Assembly (NCBI GenBank): GCA_001804805.1
Contig: MHBH01000017.1
Coordinates: 62,001 to 126,000, forward strand
Source: Lentisphaerae bacterium GWF2_49_21
GTDB taxonomy: Bacteria > Verrucomicrobiota > Lentisphaeria > Victivallales > GWF2-50-93
DNA: 64,000 bases
Direction: 5' to 3'
Numbering within the stretch: position 1 is the first letter of the stretch; each line of letters begins with the position of its first letter. Positions 9,154 to 64,000 of the stretch are shown piece by piece. Made by a program: the position numbers and the translations under genes. Below the pieces are notes generated by a model that saw only the letters and a program-made list of their open reading frames with translations, ran no database searches and was not told the origin of the DNA.

Positions 9154-9402
9154 TTACATTCTTTTTGTTTTCAGGAGTGTAGGACAGGCCTCTGGCCTGT
9201 CTCTGTTGATGACAGGCGGGACGCCTGTCCTACATTCTTTTTGTTTTCAGGAGTGTAGGACAGGCCTCTGGCCTGTCTCAGTTGATGACAGGCGGGACGC
9301 CTGTCCTACATTCTTTTTGTTTTCAGGAGTGTAGGACAGGCCTCTGGCCTGTCTCTGTTGATGACAGGCGGGACGCCTGTCCTACATTCTTTTTGTTTTC
9401 AG
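9154..9402. repeat. Three-copy 76-bp palindromic repeat array
   Basis: Three near-identical units with period exactly 76 (palindromic parts 9179-9233, 9255-9309, 9331-9385). Each part has an 11-bp outer stem (GTAGGACAGGC / GCCTGTCCTAC) enclosing two tight hairpins: ACAGGCC-TCT-GGCCTGT and GACAGGCG-GGA-CGCCTGTC. The units are joined by a constant T-rich linker (ATTCTTTTTGTTTTCAGGAGT), and linker sequence also flanks both ends. Copies differ at one base (CTCTGTTG versus CTCAGTTG). It is a tandem expansion of a dispersed palindromic element, not a CRISPR, since the linker is constant. Confidence 0.95.
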
Positions 9403-11051: not shown

Positions 11052-11073
11052 GGAGCGCCGGCATCTTGCCGGC
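11052..11073. repeat. Short palindromic repeat GGAGCGCC-hairpin
   Basis: A 22-base element whose core GCCGGC-ATCTT-GCCGGC forms a hairpin just after the ahcY stop. The whole 22 bases recur exactly, inverted, at 34967-34988. It may serve as a transcription end signal, although no T-run follows. Confidence 0.85.
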
Positions 11074-11436: not shown

Positions 11437-11503
11437 AAGAACAGCTCTTGCGAGCTTAACTACGAACATATTCCCGATTTCCTTAATCAGTTTGTAGTCA
11501 AGC
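11437..11503. repeat. ~86-bp nested palindromic repeat, copy 2 (right end missing)
   Basis: Begins AAGAACAGCTCTTGCGAG and continues through the inner arms (TACGAAC ... GTTTGTAGTC), then diverges, so the second hairpin and the closing TGTTCTT are missing. Same orientation as copy 1. The rest of 11504-11590 includes a low-complexity run of TTCGATGTT words (11554-11594) that also appears at 34998-35036. Confidence 0.85.
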
Positions 11504-11590
11504 CATTATTGACTGTGTGATGTTGAATCTATGGCTTTTGTTCTCTTGATTCCGTTCGAAGTTCAGAGTTCGATGTTGGATGTTCGATGT

Positions 11591-23633: not shown

Positions 23634-23648
23634 AGAAAAATACAAGAC

Positions 23649-23710
23649 GCGTCAGCAGAGTGACGCGGCTACAACAAGAATTTACTGTAGCCACGGCACT
23701 CTGTTGCCGT
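23649..23710. repeat. Nested palindromic repeat between deoC and rbsK
   Basis: Two hairpins, GCGTCA-GCAGAG-TGACGC and ACGGCA-CTCTGT-TGCCGT, are arranged around inner arms GGCTACA / TGTAGCC. This is the same two-hairpin plan as the 76-bp array at 9154-9402 but with different stem words. It lies inside a probable operon, so it could stabilise or divide the transcript. Confidence 0.85.
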
Positions 23711-23741
23711 GTCCTTCATCCATACTTGAAAGGAGTTCCAT

Positions 23742-27515: not shown

Positions 27516-28355
27516 ATGGGAAAAAAAACCACACTGCTCGAGCTGCTTGCCGTGCCAGCAGTAGCTCGAAGAGCGAAGGCAAGCTCAAGAGCGTTTACGC
27601 TCATTGAGCTGTTGGTCGCTGTGCCCGCCATAGCTACCCCGCGACTGCGGGGAGCGACGGCGAGAGCAACTCGATTTACCTTGATCGAGTTGCTCGTGGT
27701 GATTGCGATCATCGCAATCCTTGCGGCGATGCTCCTCCCTGCACTTAAGAATGCCAAGGACACAGCCAATGCCACCCTCTGCAGGAGCAATCTCAGGCAG
27801 TGCGGACTTGCCGGTTCATCCTATGCATATGACAACAACAGCTGGTTCTATGAATGCTATGATAACTGGAACGGCTGGTCGGGGTTGGTCATCGATGGCA
27901 ATTACCTGCCAGCAAAGCCAGCCGTGGCTCAATGCCCTTCGGAGATACCGTTCGTTTACAACAATGTGTTCACTACCTATGGTGCAGGTTATCGTGTGCA
28001 TGAAAACATGGCTGGCGGCATGCCAGCTTCCGACAAGCCATTCCCGAGTTTTTCCATATCATTCCCCAGCGGAACCACTGGAGCCTTGAGGAACCTCAAT
28101 AAGATCAGAATGCCGGAAAAATATGTCTTCCTTCTGGATACATGGTCGAAGGGTACTACCTCTCAGATGTGCGATCCCCAGGCTACAGGTACCAACCAAT
28201 GGGCTTATCCCGCTTTGCGCCACATGAAATCCTGCAATGCAGTCTTCTGGGACTTCCATGTTGATTCGATGAAAGGCGAGGATTTGAAGGATAGAAGGTG
28301 GGCCTCGGCATATATCGGTTCAGCAGGAATATATATCGGCCCCAATCCGCTCTGA
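27516..28355 (+). CDS. Pseudopilin-like secreted protein with triple leader motif
   Basis: 279 residues; AGGAG lies 10 bases before the ATG. The prepilin methylation/cleavage motif occurs three times in the first 70 residues: TLLELLAV (degenerate), [10 protein letters not shown] and finally the full [19 protein letters not shown]. The first two are separated by basic linkers ([21 protein letters not shown]). The globular part ends with an H-X9-D variant ([13 protein letters not shown]). This family is very abundant in Lentisphaerota and Planctomycetota and is thought to be membrane-anchored or pilus-like; individual roles are unknown. Its closest local relative is the next gene. Confidence 0.85.
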
Positions 28356-28382
28356 ATCATTTTTCAATCCAAGGAGGAATAT

Positions 28383-29339
28383 TTGAACAGGTCAACCATA
28401 TACATTGCCAATTGCCGATTTCCGATTGTCGATTTAGGATTTAGAATTAAAAATAGAAATTGTATAAATAAAATTGGAAATCGGCAATTGGCAATTGGAA
28501 ATGCGTTCACACTTGCCCAACTGCTCGTGGCCTGCCAGCCGACGTGTCCCTCGAAGCTCTCTTGGCGAAGTGGGAAGTTACCCGTTCGGGGACGTAGGCC
28601 AATTCAAACAAAGTTTACTTTGATTGAATTGCTTGTGGTCATTGCGATCATCGCAATCCTCGCGTCCCTCCTTCTTCCCGCCCTCAAAAAAGCGAAGGAG
28701 ACGGCCAAGGCCGTTGTCTGCAAGAGCAACCTCAGGCAGTCCTCGCTTACCCAGACCACTTATGCATTTGACAATGACAGTTTCGTCTATGAGAGCTGTG
28801 AGAACTTCTGGGGCTGGTCATATCGCCTTGTCGAAAATAACTACCTGAATCAGAATCCCGATGTCGCGGTCTGCCCTTCCGAAGTACCATTCAGCTACAA
28901 GGATGTATATGGCACCTACGGAGCCGGTTATGCGGTCAGCGAGAACATGATGTATCCTCCGATCGGCTGGCCCACTTTCCCCGGCGCTGACAAACCTTAT
29001 ACGAGTCTTACCCTTCAGTGGGGGAGTACTTGGCAGCTCTCATTCCTGAGGAACCTCAACCAGATTGGAAAGCCTGTCAAATACGTGTCACTGCTTGATA
29101 CCTGGGCCCAGGGAACACAGCCACACGAAAAACGGCAGGTGTGCAATCCGTAGTCGACAACAGTAAGCAACCCATGGACCTTTCCGGCGAGAAGGCATTT
29201 GGGTTCATGCAATGCCGTGATGTGGGACAACCATGTTGAATCGCTGGATGCGCAGGGGCTCAAGGACAGGTGCTGGTTTGCCTCGTATCTTGGTTCGAAT
29301 GGCGTCTATGCCGGAGCAAGTTCCCCGATCCTGCATTAG
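28383..29339 (+). pseudogene. Pseudopilin-like gene interrupted by an in-frame amber codon
   Basis: TTG start with AAGGAGG 6 bases upstream. The frame stops at TAG 29151-29153 after 256 residues but continues in the same frame for 61 more codons to the TAG at 29337-29339. The continuation (SCNAVMWDNHVESL ... LKDRCWFASYLGSNGVY) matches the end of the preceding gene ([14 protein letters not shown] ... [17 protein letters not shown]). The TAG aligns with a Gln (CAG) in the sister protein, so one C-to-T change explains it. The leader is long and composite: an incomplete motif FTLAQLLV, a linker, then [15 protein letters not shown]. Other explanations are a sequencing error or stop readthrough. 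Confidence 0.8.
28404..28495. repeat. 20-bp perfect inverted repeat inside the leader-coding region
   Basis: The left arm (28404-28423) begins ATTGCCAATTGCCG and its exact reverse complement is at 28476-28495. The 52-base AT-rich spacer lies between them. Both arms are translated as part of the pseudopilin leader. Related words (TTTCCAATTTCCAATTGCCG) recur at 42843-42862 in another pseudopilin leader. Confidence 0.9.
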
Positions 29340-29398: not shown

Positions 29399-29530
29399 GT
29401 TGGAGTTCACAGCTTTAGCGTGTCTTGAATATTGTTGGTAGTAGCGCAATTTATTGCGCGTTCTTGAAATGGGGAAACGGCGAATAAATTCGCCTACTAC
29501 GAGCAAAATACACACGCTGTGAACTCCAAC
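29399..29530. repeat. 132-bp doubly nested palindromic repeat
   Basis: A 15-bp perfect outer stem (GTTGGAGTTCACAGC / GCTGTGAACTCCAAC) encloses inner arms GTAGTAG / CTACTAC, which enclose hairpins GCGCAA...TTGCGC (29444-29459) and GGCGAAT...ATTCGCC (29479-29494). It separates the interrupted pseudopilin gene from the GH9 gene, whose ATG follows 26 bases later, so the palindrome lies in its leader or promoter. Apart from it, 29340-29556 shows no gene. Confidence 0.92.
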
Positions 29531-33026: not shown

Positions 33027-33231
33027 ATATTTGTTCCAGAACTGTTATTATACGCAATTGCGATTTTTTATAAAATAGCACTTTTTTCAGTGCAATACAA
33101 TACACATAAGACGCTTGGAATCTGGGAAAACCAATTCAAAGTAGTAAATCATGATGCCGGAAATTGCGCATAACTTAGGAAACTATTGATTCGGTGGGTA
33201 ATCAGCTTGCATTTCAGTCACGCTCTTCAAT

Positions 33232-33444
33232 GTCGCCGCCCTGCGGGGACTTTTTTCTTTTTACCTTATTGTTTTCCCAGGGCTTTCGCCCTGGGCTACA
33301 ACATGCCGCCCTCTGCGAGGGCTGAAGACAGAATCTGATTCCATGGGAAGCCTCCGAAGGATGGCGATATATTGTAGCCCATGGGCGTTAGCCATGGGAC
33401 ATGTGTGGGGAAAAATGTAATCCGAGTCCCCGCAGGGAGGCGAC
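33232..33444. repeat. 213-bp multi-hairpin palindromic element
   Basis: Outer 19-bp arms (33232-33250 and 33426-33444, GTCGCCGCCCTGCGGGGAC type) pair with one mismatch. Inside are CCCAGGGCTTTCGCCCTGGG followed by CTACAA (33276-33301), GCCCTC-TGC-GAGGGC (about 33307-33321), and TTGTAG followed by CCCATGGGCGTTAGCCATGGG (33372-33398). CTACAA and TTGTAG pair with each other. A left-half fragment of the ~86-bp repeat (AAGAACAGCCCTTGTGAGC) begins at 33447. The AT-rich 33027-33231 shows no gene. Confidence 0.9.
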
Positions 33445-33532
33445 ATAAGAACAGCCCTTGTGAGCTCGCGAATTATTGCTTCGGAAGATAATTAACTTGC
33501 ATGGCTGTCCCCTGTCATCTGTCTTCTTCCGG

Positions 33533-34966: not shown

Positions 34967-35094
34967 GCCGGCAAGATGCCGGCGCTCCGTTTACTAATTC
35001 GATGTTGGAAGTTCAATGTTGAATGTTCGACGTTCATTTTTTACACAGGCAAGATGCCTGTATTTGCCAAAAGAGGCAGACAGGAATGTCTGCC
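34967..35094. repeat. Cluster of short hairpin repeats between two secreted-protein genes
   Basis: GCCGGC-AAGAT-GCCGGC with flanking GCTCC (34967-34988) is the exact inverse of 11052-11073. CAGGC-AAGAT-GCCTG (35046-35060) reuses the loop word AAGAT. GGCAGACA-GGAA-TGTCTGCC (35075-35094) abuts the stop codon of the mutarotase-like gene. Between them lies a run of TTCGATGTT/TTCAATGTT words (34998-35036). Confidence 0.88.
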
Positions 35095-36161: not shown

Positions 36162-36242
36162 AAGAACACGTCTTGCGACGTTGACTACAAACATATTCAA
36201 TAATTGCATTCGTTCGTAGTTAAGCTCGCAAGAGCTGTTCTT
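36162..36242. repeat. ~86-bp nested palindromic repeat, copy 3 (inverted, complete)
   Basis: Full copy in opposite orientation to 11094-11179: AAGAACA, CGTC-TTGC-GACG, inner arms GACTACAAAC / GTTCGTAGTT, GCTC-GCAA-GAGC, TGTTCTT. The centre between the inner arms is not conserved, while the stems are. Confidence 0.92.
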
Positions 36243-41585: not shown

Positions 41586-41918
41586 TTATTTCTTTAAGGC
41601 ACCAGGCGCCTTATTCCCGGCATTTACACCTGTTCCAGTATAGTCCTCGAAAAGCCATTCGCGGATGGTATTGTTCACGCCGCGCGAATATCCACTTCCT
41701 CCGTTGAGCACATCGTCGATCAGCCTTACCGGCTGACAGTTGTTGTAGTCCGCAGCATATATATGGAGGGCGATGCCGACCTGTTTAAGGTTGTTGAGGC
41801 ATCCGACACGCTGGGCCATGTCCTTTTCCTTCTGCAGCGCGGGCAGAAGCAATGCAGCGAGTATTGCGATGATCGCAATTACCACGAGCTGCTCGATTAA
41901 TGTGAAAGTATTCTTCAT
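41586..41918 (-). pseudogene. Truncated pseudopilin-like gene
   Basis: 110 residues with [24 protein letters not shown] (Leu5 of the motif changed to Gln). It parallels the protein of 44017-44883 closely ([33 protein letters not shown]) up to residue ~104, then ends with GALKK and a stop. The relative continues for 170 residues, including H-X9-DG-like and C-terminal WD-W-DEY regions that are absent here. It keeps a ribosome site (AAGAG), so a short product may still be made. Confidence 0.6.
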
Positions 41919-41930
41919 AATCTCTTCGTT

Positions 41931-42965
41931 TTAATATTCGTCGACCCAGTAGTCCCATGCCTTGTGCGGGGGGCCGATCCCCCAGCTGTTTCCTGAAGCC
42001 AGTTCAAATGTATTGTATGGGCCGAGGGCCAGGCATCCGAGGCCGGTATCGATCCTGTATTTCCATTCCTTCAGGGTTACGGCATGGCCGTCCATGAAGA
42101 CCGTCGGACGGGATTTGCTGTGCCAGGATTCCGCCTGGTAGGGATTGCCATATCTGTATGAACCGAATCCCCTCCTGTTGTCGTTCCTGTGCGTCGAGTC
42201 GAACTGATAGGGGACCTGTGAGGGAAGAGAGAAGGATGAAATGTTGAACGAGAAAGGTGAAATGTTCTGGGAGCTGTCTCCGCCTGCCCCCGTCTCATAA
42301 TGCAGGTAGAGGCCGGAATATGAATTGTACTGTCCGCCGTCACCGTATTCGGAGACATAATATGAGCCGATCCAGCCTCCCCAGTTGGTAGCTACCCTGA
42401 GAGGGGAGCTCGGGCATATGTAAATCCCTCCGAGTGCGCGGCGGTACCTGTCGGCACCTTCGGGTCCGGTATACTTATGCCCGACATAGTCGTAGAGGAG
42501 CTGTTCAAGACCGGCTCCTCTTGATCCTCTCTGGAAAGGATCGGACCAGACGTTTGGATCGTAGCACAATGGAAGGGAGTTTTCGTAGTCCACGGCGTAT
42601 GTGTTCATTCCAAGGGAAATCTGCTTGAGGTTTGACATGCAGGTTATGGTCCGGGCGGTTTCCTTGGCGTTGTTCAGCGCCGGCAGGAGGAGGGCGCAGA
42701 GGATTGCGATGATCGCAATGACGACGAGCAATTCAATTAGTGTAAATATATGAGAAGTTACTCGTCGCCCTGAGCTTGCTTGCGGTGAGCTTGTCGAAAC
42801 CGTCGAATGGGCAACTCCATTCAGCTCGATCAGGGTAAATGCATTTCCAATTTCCAATTGCCGACTTGTCCGCCGTAGCTCATTTGAAAGCGAAGGAGGG
42901 TTTCCGATTTTATTTTTTAATTTCAAATCAGCAGTCGAAAATATAAAATTGTAAATGTTTTCCAT
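41931..42965 (-). CDS. Pseudopilin-like protein with long composite leader
   Basis: 344 residues; ATG 42965 chosen for AGAGGGGG upstream. The leader is unusual: about 50 residues partly encoded by dispersed-repeat DNA, then FTLIELNG (first, truncated motif), a 26-residue Ser/Thr-rich linker ([13 protein letters not shown]), then the complete [15 protein letters not shown]. The body contains [15 protein letters not shown], an exact H-X9-DG motif, and ends in WDYWVDEY. It heads the minus-strand block that continues into the large secreted proteins, just downstream of an operator at 43014-43028. Confidence 0.85.
42679..42833 (-). repeat. 155-bp near-identical segment, copy 1 of 2
   Basis: Matches 43826-43980 with equal length and only a handful of base differences, mostly silent. 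It covers the hydrophobic pilin motif, the Ser-rich linker and the truncated upstream motif. The flanking coding DNA of the two genes is much more different. Confidence 0.85.
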
Positions 42966-43012
42966 GATATAACCCCCTCTGGCCTGATGTTTCATGTTCC
43001 TGTCCTTCTATA

Positions 43013-43040
43013 ATTGTAACCGCTCACGATAATAAAACAA
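43013..43040 (-). promoter_or_regulatory. Operator CGTGAGCGGTTACAA with overlapping promoter
   Basis: The 15-base operator (43028-43014, minus strand) is identical to that at the LacI promoter (21740-21726). A moderate promoter fits: TTGTTT (43040-43035), 16 bases, TACAAT (43018-43013), which places the operator across spacer and -10. It lies 49 bases before the pseudopilin gene start at 42965 and 59 bases after the upstream gene. Confidence 0.65.
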
Positions 43041-43086
43041 GTGCAATCTCCAGATATTTATTTGATGGAAAAATGAAAAAAGACAT

Positions 43087-44001
43087 TCAGTATTCGTCGA
43101 TCCAGAAATCCCAGGGCTTGTGGGCCGCCTGTCCGGAATAAGCGTATCCGGTCCCTATCTCGTAGGTGTTGTAGTTCCCGAGTGCAAGACACCAGCCTGC
43201 AGAGGTTTCAAACCTGAACTTCCTCTCGGTGAGATTCATGGAATGTCCGTCGATGAATACTGTCGGACGTGCCTTGGGATGCCACGATTCCGCCTGATAC
43301 GGATTTGCATATCTGTAGCCGCCTGTCCCCTGCCTGTTGTCATTCCTGTGCGTCGAATCCCACTGGTAGGGCAATTGTGCAGGCTTGGAAAAATGAGTGA
43401 TCTTATATGAGAACGGGGGCTTGGGATCATTTCCAGTTACGGCATCGCCGCCGTAGTGCTCGAAGAGTCCTGCATAGGAATTATACTGGCCGCCATCGCC
43501 GCATTCGGATACATAGTATGAACCAGTCCATCCGGACCAGTTGGTCTTGACGTTCATTGGGGCGCTTGCACAGAGGAAGATTCCTCCTGTGGCCTGTCGG
43601 TCGAAACTTGCCCCGGCAGGTCCCTTGTACTTCTGTCCGGTGTAATCGCTCATCAGATATTCGAGGCCAGTACCTCTGGCGCCCTTCTGGAAGTTGTCGA
43701 ATCCGGCTATGTTGAACGGCATGCAGAAATTATAATCATTGGCGTAGGTGTTCATGGCGAGGCCTATCTGCTTCAGGTTCGACTGGCAGAGGGCCATCCT
43801 GGCGGTCTCCCTGGCGTTCTGCAGGGCCGGCAGGAGGAGTGCGCAGAGGATTGCGATGATCGCGATTACGACGAGCAATTCAATTAGTGTAAATATACGA
43901 GAAGTTACTCGTCGCCCTGAGCTTGCTTGCGGTGAGCTTGTCGAAACCGTCGAATGGGCAACACCATTCAGTTCGATCAGTGTGAAAAAAGTTTTTCTCA
44001 T
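43087..44001 (-). CDS. Pseudopilin-like protein with duplicated leader motif
   Basis: 304 residues. The N-terminus [13 protein letters not shown] gives a truncated motif, then a repeat-derived linker ([17 protein letters not shown]), then the full [15 protein letters not shown]. The body resembles the neighbouring 344-residue protein throughout. [15 protein letters not shown] is an exact H-X9-DG, and the C-terminus is WDFWIDEY. Ribosome site GGATG 7 bases upstream. The 15-base spacing to the upstream gene implies co-transcription. Which of the two possible FTLIEL sites the prepilin peptidase would cut is unclear. Confidence 0.87.
43826..43980 (-). repeat. 155-bp near-identical segment, copy 2 of 2
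   Basis: See 42679-42833. Inside it lies GGTTTCGACAAGCTCACC followed by GCAAGCAAGCTCAGGG (minus strand), which reads like an intergenic dispersed repeat that has become coding. Confidence 0.85.
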
Positions 44002-44016
44002 TTTTCATCCATGATG

Positions 44017-44883
44017 TTAATATTCTTCTATCTGGTAATCGAAGGCCTTGTGGCCTGAGGAACCTGTCGTGTTCCTGCAAAAGTAATAGGTGCTGTAGTT
44101 TTCCAGCACGACCTTGCCCGTGTCGGTTATATACTTAGTTGATACCAGCCCAATTGCATGTCCATCGTAAAAAACCGTAGGCCGGCATTTCTGCTTGTGC
44201 CATGGATATCCTCCGTAGACATTTGGGCATTCGAGGTGGCTTGGGTGCCACCAGTAGCGTTCTCCGCATAACTGGAACGGCGTACGTTCCGGCTTGCTGA
44301 AATGGGTGATAAGGAAATTGAACGGGGGTTCGACATCCGGTGTGGCGGAGGGGGTGAACCATCGCCCACCACCGGTGTTGTAATGTTCCCAGTTGCCCCA
44401 GTATGAATTGTTTTTCCGGGAACCTGCACCTCCAGTGAGGAGATAATTCCCGTCGTAATTGCCGGTACTTGGGTTGGCGCCGATGTAATGTGAGGGGCAT
44501 ATCCATATCCCCCCATGTGCGTTGTTTCCAGTGTTCGCACCTTTGCCGGTATAATCTTCAAGCAACCATTCCCTGATGGTTCCATTGACACCGCGGTCAT
44601 AACCTGAACCTGATACCAGTCGCACAGGCTGGGACATGTTGTAGTCGGTGCCATAGACATGCAACGCAACGCCGATTTGCTTGAGGTTGTTCAGGCAGCC
44701 GGAGCGGTGGGCCATGTCCTTCGCATTCTGAAGCGCTGGAAGAAGCATCGCGGCCAGGATTGCGATGATCGCAATCACCACCAAGAGTTCGATAAGCGTG
44801 AAAACACTTCTCGAACTTGCCTCCGGATGAGAGGCTACGGCTGGCGCGGCCAGAAGCTCAATCGGTGTGAATTGGCTTTTCAC
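44017..44883 (-). CDS. Pseudopilin-like protein with degenerate first leader motif
   Basis: 288 residues, starting at GTG with AGGACG upstream. The leader carries [13 protein letters not shown], then ASSRSV and the complete [19 protein letters not shown]. The globular part includes GIWICPSHY and [16 protein letters not shown] (His-to-DG spacing of 10 rather than 9), and ends FDYQIEEY. It is the closest relative of the truncated gene at 41586-41918. Part of a three-gene series with 15-base gaps. Confidence 0.87.
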
Positions 44884-44898
44884 AAGAGCGTCCTATAG

Positions 44899-45717
44899 TT
44901 AATTTTCATCGATCCAGAAATCCCACGGGGAATGAGGTGGTGATCCGCCACCGGATCCAAGATGAAATGAGCTGTATGGACCGGTGAGGATATTCTGATA
45001 TCCGTGAGCCGTGTAATTATAGGAGACCAATGCAAAGACGTGACCGTCTGCGAATGCAGTCGGTCTTGGCCCATATGCGTTTTTCTTGTGCCAGCTGGCC
45101 CCGCCGAGGGTGTTGTTGGTGACGTTGCCATCAGTCTTTGCCAAAGCCCATCCGCCCATTCGCCTGGAGCAGAACTGCAGCGGGGATCCGGAGGGATTAT
45201 GCTTGAAGGTTGAAAGTTTAATTGCATTATCGTTAGGGGTCAGCTGATCCGTGTTCATCGACGAGCCGACATAATGATAATACAATCCTTCATAGCAGTT
45301 GGAGGCGTAGGCCCCATAATTATCATCGTGGTTGTATTTGCCGCCCTGGTAGTTTGGATTGAAGGATACAGGGGAAGCTGCGCAGATCCAGACAGGATGT
45401 CCAGTGGCGAGATGTGCGGCCGTAGGGAGCTTCGAATTCACATACGGTGCCAGGGCGACTTCCAGTCCCCTGTGCATATAGCCCCATGTAGACCAGCTGG
45501 AATTGGATGCGACCCGGTCGCATGGCATATACATGTTGAAGTCATCGGCATAGGAATGATAGGAAAGGCCGACCTGCTTTAGATTGTTGGTGCAGGATAT
45601 CATGTGAGCGTGGGCTTTTGCCTGTTGGAGTGCCGGCAGTAGCATGGCTGCGAGGATTGCGATGATCGCAATCACCACGAGAAGCTCGATCAGGGTGAAT
45701 TTATTTTGAGCTCTCAT
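44899..45717 (-). CDS. Pseudopilin-like protein with simple leader
   Basis: 272 residues. Here the leader is short and standard (MRAQNK then [19 protein letters not shown]), unlike its downstream neighbours. The body has PVWICAASP, a [10 protein letters not shown] segment (His spaced 13 residues before DG) and the C-terminus WDFWIDEN. It is the first gene of the minus-strand pseudopilin series, and its upstream region (45718-45807) separates it from the next minus-strand gene. It shows the ancestral form without repeat insertion. Confidence 0.88.
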
Positions 45718-63578: not shown

Positions 63579-64000
63579 ATGGCAAACACCAGGAAATTCA
63601 CTTTGATTGAGCTTCTCGTGGTAATTGCGATCATCGCGATACTTGCGGCAATGCTCCTCCCGGCGCTCCAGCAGGCCAAGGAGACGGCCTTTTCGGCGTT
63701 ATGCAAGAACAATCTGAAACAGCTCGGGCTTTGCTGGCACATGTATACGGAGGACTATGCAGATTGGACGCCGAACGCGGGGTGGGCTGTGAATTCCGCG
63801 GCGGGGGATCCGCCGGCCTGGGCGAACCAGTATGACGACTATCTGTTTCCAGGGAGGGTCATGCCTTCGGACGGGAACAGGATAATAAAGACTGAGCTTT
63901 TCAAGTGTCCGATGCTCATAAAGAAAATACCGGAGACGAGATTCTGGGAAGGTACCAGATACAACGACATTTATGGCAAGGTGCTGAGATACTGCCTTGG
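63579..64000 (+). CDS. Pseudopilin-like protein, N-terminal part (runs off the window)
   Basis: ATG 63579 followed by ANTRK and the full [19 protein letters not shown] motif, then [35 protein letters not shown], as in the other pseudopilins here. The leader is short and simple. 140 codons are open to the window edge. It follows the GntR gene by 18 bases. Confidence 0.9.

Follow-up and report, generated by a model that had tools for sequence, protein, structure and literature searches.

The window, a stretch of 64,000 nucleotides from a Lentisphaerae-type bacterium, contains six hairpin-rich elements (at 9.2, 11.1, 23.6, 29.4, 33.3 and 36.2 kb), all of which are intergenic, each lying between main ORFs of the window. 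An earlier note on this DNA had placed elements at these six positions and had remarked that their hairpin words differ. This is confirmed, as two 7-bp hairpins are present at 23648–23711, and paired hairpins with other stem letters occur at 9.2, 11.1, 29.4, 33.3 and 36.2 kb. Five of the six elements are inverted pairs of GTAG-tagged palindromes (REPs), the one at 33.3 kb being the exception. The features are as follows:

9179–9385: array of three REP dimers, period 76, GTAG tags outward, loops tct / tcc; the class also lies beside the Y1 gene L016
11094–11179: REP dimer, tag GTAGTYAA, 4-bp stem, loop GCAA, tail TGTTCTT, tags inward
11437–11516: mixed REP dimer of one GCAA-loop and one TTAT-loop unit
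23648–23711: REP dimer (REPIN), hairpin 1 on the minus strand (23648–23672), hairpin 2 on the plus strand (23687–23711), GTAGC tags inward, loops ctctgc / ctctgt
29399–29530: outer pair of GTTGGAGT-tagged units (class found with the L026 gene) on either side of the 29.4 kb dimer
29438–29500: REP dimer, tag GTAGTA, loop TTTA, stems GCGCAA and GGCGAA, tags outward
33230–33446: two IS200/IS605-type ends with no transposase gene, each matching Rfam Acido-Lenti-1 (RF01687)
36162–36242: REP dimer of the 11.1 kb class (GCAA loop), stems CGTC and GCTC, tags inward

The 23.6 kb element lies between the genes for a DeoC/LacD-family aldolase and a pfkB-family kinase and is formed by two perfect 7-bp hairpins in inverted order. 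Each read from its own tag, hairpin 1 is GTAGC-CGCGTCA-ctctgc-TGACGCG (minus strand) and hairpin 2 is GTAGC-CACGGCA-ctctgt-TGCCGTG (plus strand). Their loops are complementary because two units with the same loop are inverted, and an RNA junction with kissing loops, which was considered for this arrangement, was rejected as the complementarity is a consequence of that order. What had been described as an inner arm is the tag plus the tag's complement. As the arms of the earlier note are largely this tag, and as the GTAG tag is shared, the view that the elements are defined by “architecture, not sequence” is not confirmed. Nor do all six follow one plan: the tags face inward in the elements at 11.1, 23.6, 33.3 and 36.2 kb and outward in those at 9.2 and 29.4 kb, the 9.2 kb element is an array of three dimers, that at 29.4 kb is nested, and that at 33.3 kb is longer, with extra hairpins.

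Copies in the genome were counted with class patterns in which the tag and loop are fixed, in some cases also a stem base or the tail, and in which the stem is mostly or wholly free. The pattern of the 23.6 kb class, GTAGCNNNNNNACTCTGNT, has 18 matches vs one for the reversed control, that of the GCAA class (11.1 and 36.2 kb) 116 copies vs none, the TTAT pattern 73 matches vs none, and that of the 29.4 kb class 25 vs four. The genome search by structure that had been proposed earlier thus yields many copies, and these have the characteristics of REPs, with a tetranucleotide conserved on the 5′ side of a hairpin, between 18 and 116 copies for each pattern, and frequent arrangement as inverted dimers. 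In 761 kb sampled from the genome (the window plus up to 20 kb from the start of each of 40 contigs), GTAG is the top-ranked tetramer 5′ of perfect hairpins (37 vs 6.9 expected). GGAG is found there 39 times (19 expected), and AGTA, TAAA and TAGG are also enriched, partly through overlap. Besides GTAG, both GGAG and GTAA occur as tags in this genome.

Within a class, the tag and loop (in one class also the tail) are fixed, and the stems vary with their pairing kept. Counted by cells, which are not independent events as copies of a class share descent and are counted many times, pairing exceeds the shuffle maximum in all three classes analysed: 396 of 400 stem pairs are Watson-Crick in the GCAA class (100 of the 116 copies; shuffles mean 251, maximum 281), 288 of 292 cells are paired in the TTAT class (shuffles mean 237, maximum 251; stem counts tallied by hand), and 138 of 150 in the 29.4 kb class (shuffles mean 96, maximum 109). 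All four stem pairs are Watson-Crick in 96 of the 100 GCAA copies listed, and 69 of the 73 TTAT copies are fully paired, as are 15 of the 25 copies of the 29.4 kb class, the other 10 having one or more mismatches in the stem. As evidence of covariation, the count of different paired stems is safer than the cell counts. The GCAA class has GCTC, TGTC, CGTC, TGCC, GCCC and a few rare ones, and the 23.6 kb class has four stem versions, with pairing intact in each copy read. The proposal that stems stay paired while their letters change is therefore upheld, and covariation within classes is seen. The related idea of an enzyme that recognises shape holds for the stem but not for the tag and loop, the letters of which are fixed within a class.

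A search for RAYT/Y1 genes, likewise suggested beforehand, gave 20 matches to PF01797 (Y1 transposase) in the genome, taken as 19 loci, most of which are bracketed by shared repeats. Flanks share a word of at least 16 bases at 15 of 17 loci (L014, with an odd long frame, and L017, at a contig end, were omitted), as compared to three of 195 control placements. An NCBIfam scan of the loci other than L012, L014 and L017 placed L009 and L010 above the cut-off of NF033573 (IS200/IS605 TnpA). L019 (85.1 bits), L022, L024 and L025 are above the RAYT cut-off of NF047646 (80), L021 equals it, and nine of the 15 scanned RAYT-like proteins (L011, L013, L015, L016, L018, L020, L023, L026 and L027) are below it. 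L019 also matches PDB 4er8 (TnpArep; E 2e-8).

Several REP classes bracket their own RAYT gene. Six of the 18 matches of the 23.6 kb pattern surround the RAYT gene L019 (G000:C77:150468-150944), three units on each side, the 9.2 kb class flanks L016, and the outer-unit class of the 29.4 kb element flanks L026. The flanks of L024 carry the tag and tail of the 11.1/36.2 kb class, but with the loop TTAT, and those of L025 the tag and tail of the inner 29.4 kb class, but with the loop TGTT. For the GCAA class, no same-loop RAYT adjoins it at the Y1 loci of this genome, and no GCAA-loop RAYT was found at those Y1 loci, some of the total, that were read in three sister genomes. The earlier suggestion of a RAYT-like transposase is thus correct in that RAYT genes are present and REP-bracketed, but it does not extend to the 33.3 kb element (see below). 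A gene tree groups the RAYT-like genes by REP tag and loop (L019 is on a long branch with no sure place), and RAYT relatedness correlates with REP tag/loop (Mantel rho 0.49, p 0.0004, n = 12 genes). More than 12 RAYT-like genes in one genome, most of them REP-bracketed, amount to a natural table of enzymes and hairpins, which makes it possible to read and test a recognition code made up of tag, loop and paired stem. One locus has an unusual structure: L014 (G000:C76:60159-60993) is a 741-aa frame in which a part resembling, by eye, the specificity subunit of a restriction system is followed by in-frame REP-derived repeats and then by the Y1 domain, with two Y1 matches some 590 bases from each other. 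The frame may have arisen by gene fusion or in the assembly.

At the orthologue of the 23.6 kb site in the sister species G001, the same two genes enclose another GTAG dimer, in a region that is 84% identical over 1.7 kb. This is a case of REP-pair turnover at a single place, though not a clean empty site. Sister-genome orthologues of L025 and L013 (L290 and L294, respectively) have kept their REP class, the L024 orthologue (L289) has the same tag and one same stem with another loop, and the homologue of L019 in G004 (57% identity) is accompanied by GTAG dimers that differ in both stems and loop. Copies of the GCAA class number 55 in G001, 6 in G002 and 22 in G003, with none in each of G004–G007 (four genomes from other genera of the family), and the class seems to be limited to the genus of the window's genome.

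We consider it very probable that the elements are REPINs, that is, two inverted REPs, each with a GTAG or GGAG tag and a hairpin, which are maintained and spread by the RAYTs of the genome. In the process envisaged, a RAYT (an HUH nuclease with one tyrosine) would bind the single-stranded hairpin via the tag, the loop and the paired stem, would cut beside the hairpin, and might then move or copy the pair; recognition of the paired stem would place pairing, rather than stem letters, under selection. According to PMC8266576, the RAYTs of E. coli, Stenotrophomonas and Marinomonas bind GTAG plus hairpin as single-stranded DNA and cut alongside. Tag and loop or stem irregularities matter and several stem swaps are tolerated; in Marinomonas the TTTA loop and the paired stem matter and some stem swaps have little effect, and in Stenotrophomonas the loop matters. 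The fixed tag and loop and the free but paired stem of the current elements appear to be the counterpart of this published biochemistry.

In common with GTAG REPs, BIMEs and REPINs that are associated with RAYTs (PMC2817692, PMC3116915, PMC3733652, PMC3686654), the elements have the GTAG tag, a palindromic stem, inverted dimers, a class's own RAYT beside it, complementary stem changes, and frequent dimers of unlike stems. They differ from known REPs in their Lentisphaerae-type host, in the many classes within one genome, in the additional tags GGAG and GTAA, in one class with a 4-bp stem, GCAA loop and long conserved tail, and in a rule of two stem types that all 32 dimers of two subclasses obey. 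That REPs occur in the wider group was already known, as Verrucomicrobia are mentioned in PMC3733652 (Lentisphaerae are not, in the part available), and no literature on RAYTs together with Lentisphaerae was found among titles and the beginnings of abstracts.

Intergenic hairpins with covarying stems could also be structured RNAs, multi-hairpin junctions with complementary loops that have an RNA function such as regulation of a neighbouring gene, and one of the elements does exceed the gathering score of an Rfam sRNA family. We regard this as very unlikely, however, because several unrelated classes have one common tag and form inverted pairs, REP classes stand on both sides of Y1 transposase genes, inversion by itself makes the loops complementary, the sister species carries another class at the orthologous site, and the Rfam family concerned, RF01687, is itself found next to IS200-type genes. 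Chance hairpins or transcription terminators would be compatible with the intergenic position, and terminators predict the enrichment of A-rich tetramers that is also seen before hairpins, but copy numbers far above those of the reversed-pattern controls, together with class-specific tags and loops and the placement around Y1 genes, make such an origin improbable in the extreme.

Most pairs combine two different stems. All 22 GCAA dimers with units less than 130 bases apart join a G-starting stem to a C/T-starting stem (permutation mean 11.2; 22 was reached in none of 20000), and unlike stems are also joined in 10/10 TTAT, 4/4 29.4 kb-class and 8/8 23.6 kb-class dimers. The same two stem types (G-Y, Y-G) pair in both subclasses, GCAA (22/22) and TTAT (10/10), with tags inward in 21 of the 22 GCAA dimers and outward in all 10 TTAT dimers. 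In a wider set, two of 27 dimers have equal stems. This rule bears on a preference that has no obvious explanation according to PMC3733652, where dimers of two different stems are reported as frequent and where it is suggested that unlike stems protect against palindrome-clearing enzymes. In DNA folding calculations, a single long hairpin is more favourable than two for the natural dimers, by a mean of 3.0 kcal/mol, and for dimers with equal stems, constructed in silico, by 16.5 kcal/mol; these computed energies fit the palindrome-protection idea and are also compatible with a difference between left and right ends. That stems are unlike solely so that dimers fold as two hairpins at the energy minimum was rejected, as 27 of the 32 natural dimers still form one long hairpin and what changes is the size of the gap.

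Unlike stems might instead be the left and right ends of a mobile unit, both of which are needed by the enzyme, as in IS200/IS605. The consistent pairing of G-Y with Y-G stems in the GCAA and TTAT dimers argues for this, as does the symmetrical placement of the two stem types around the L024 gene, but avoidance of long palindromes explains the rule equally well, given that equal stems so widen the folding gap, and the equal-stem dimers of the wider set are exceptions to it. We put forward two dissimilar ends only tentatively, as the less probable interpretation.

The element at 33.3 kb is an IS200/IS605-type relative built on the same plan; it goes with an IS200/IS605 transposase and not with a RAYT. 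It has a match to RF01687 on the plus strand (33276–33323, 43.3 bits, above the gathering score of 37) and another on the minus strand (33349–33398, 27.7 bits, under that score). Like IS200/IS605 elements, where L009 and L010 encode TnpA and sit between inverted hairpin ends, it has two such ends, but their order is opposite to that around transposase genes and there is no transposase gene between them, the space being too small for one. This is the arrangement that two abutting ends would be expected to give. Its hairpin series resembles, by eye, both ends around the tnpA gene L300 of G002.

In the genome as a whole, RF01687 has 55 matches at E 0.001 or better, 28 of them over the gathering score, and the IS200-type gene L009 has a match on either side, in opposite orientations. 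Across 18 genomes, RF01687 lies within 400 bases of at least nine of 25 Y1 genes that score 60 bits or more (0.07 expected by chance) and, among the matches listed (150 of a longer list), of none of 78 that score less (0.25 expected), the 60-bit line between IS200-like and RAYT-like genes having been set after inspection of the list. For 16 of the 25 IS200-like genes there is none nearby among the matches listed. Oppositely oriented matches bracket the gene in G000, G001 (two loci), G003 and G050; L136 and L137 lie in genomes whose coordinates agree with those of G001 and G003, and they do not count as independent evidence. In a Bacteroidota relative, a weak match (22.4 bits) is found beside the tnpA gene L138, and one match elsewhere in that genome is over the gathering score. 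The survey covered genomes outside Acidobacteria, the other founding phylum of RF01687. As a separate observation, the IS200-type gene L010 (G000:C54:39658) lies within a 28-base inverted repeat with a hairpin end of Acido-Lenti-1-like plan, and its ends have no RF01687 match at E 0.1.

Acido-Lenti-1 was described in 2010 as a candidate structured RNA and is catalogued as an sRNA (PMC2864571), and RF01687 near Tannerella proteases has been taken as a possible regulatory RNA (PMC13298647); in the accessible parts of the literature that names Acido-Lenti-1 or RF01687, no link to a transposon was found. Although filed as an sRNA, the family behaves here as a transposon end, with the 33.3 kb element over its gathering score. 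Rather than an RNA gene, RF01687 is thus probably the hairpin end of transposons of the IS200/IS605 type and of derivatives of these without a gene, and its covariation would reflect recognition of single-stranded DNA hairpins by the transposase. If this is true, copies of RF01687 near genes, such as those reported in PMC13298647, are marks of mobile elements. Classifying Acido-Lenti-1 with transposon ends would set right an Rfam entry that is used in genome annotation and would alter the reading of its gene-adjacent copies.

Further repeats were noted in the window. Single GGAG-tagged palindromes at 11052–11073 and 34967–34988 represent one further class (GGAGC, stem GCCGGCA, loop tct), which is also found elsewhere in the 761-kb sample. 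A GTAA-tagged palindrome at 35075–35094 has the loop ttcc, which is that of the L013/L022/L023 group. A diverged repeat of about 130–200 bases recurs both within and near ORFs on both strands (41721–45700, 27674–28819 and 63596–63731), in a pattern as from a paralogous gene family.
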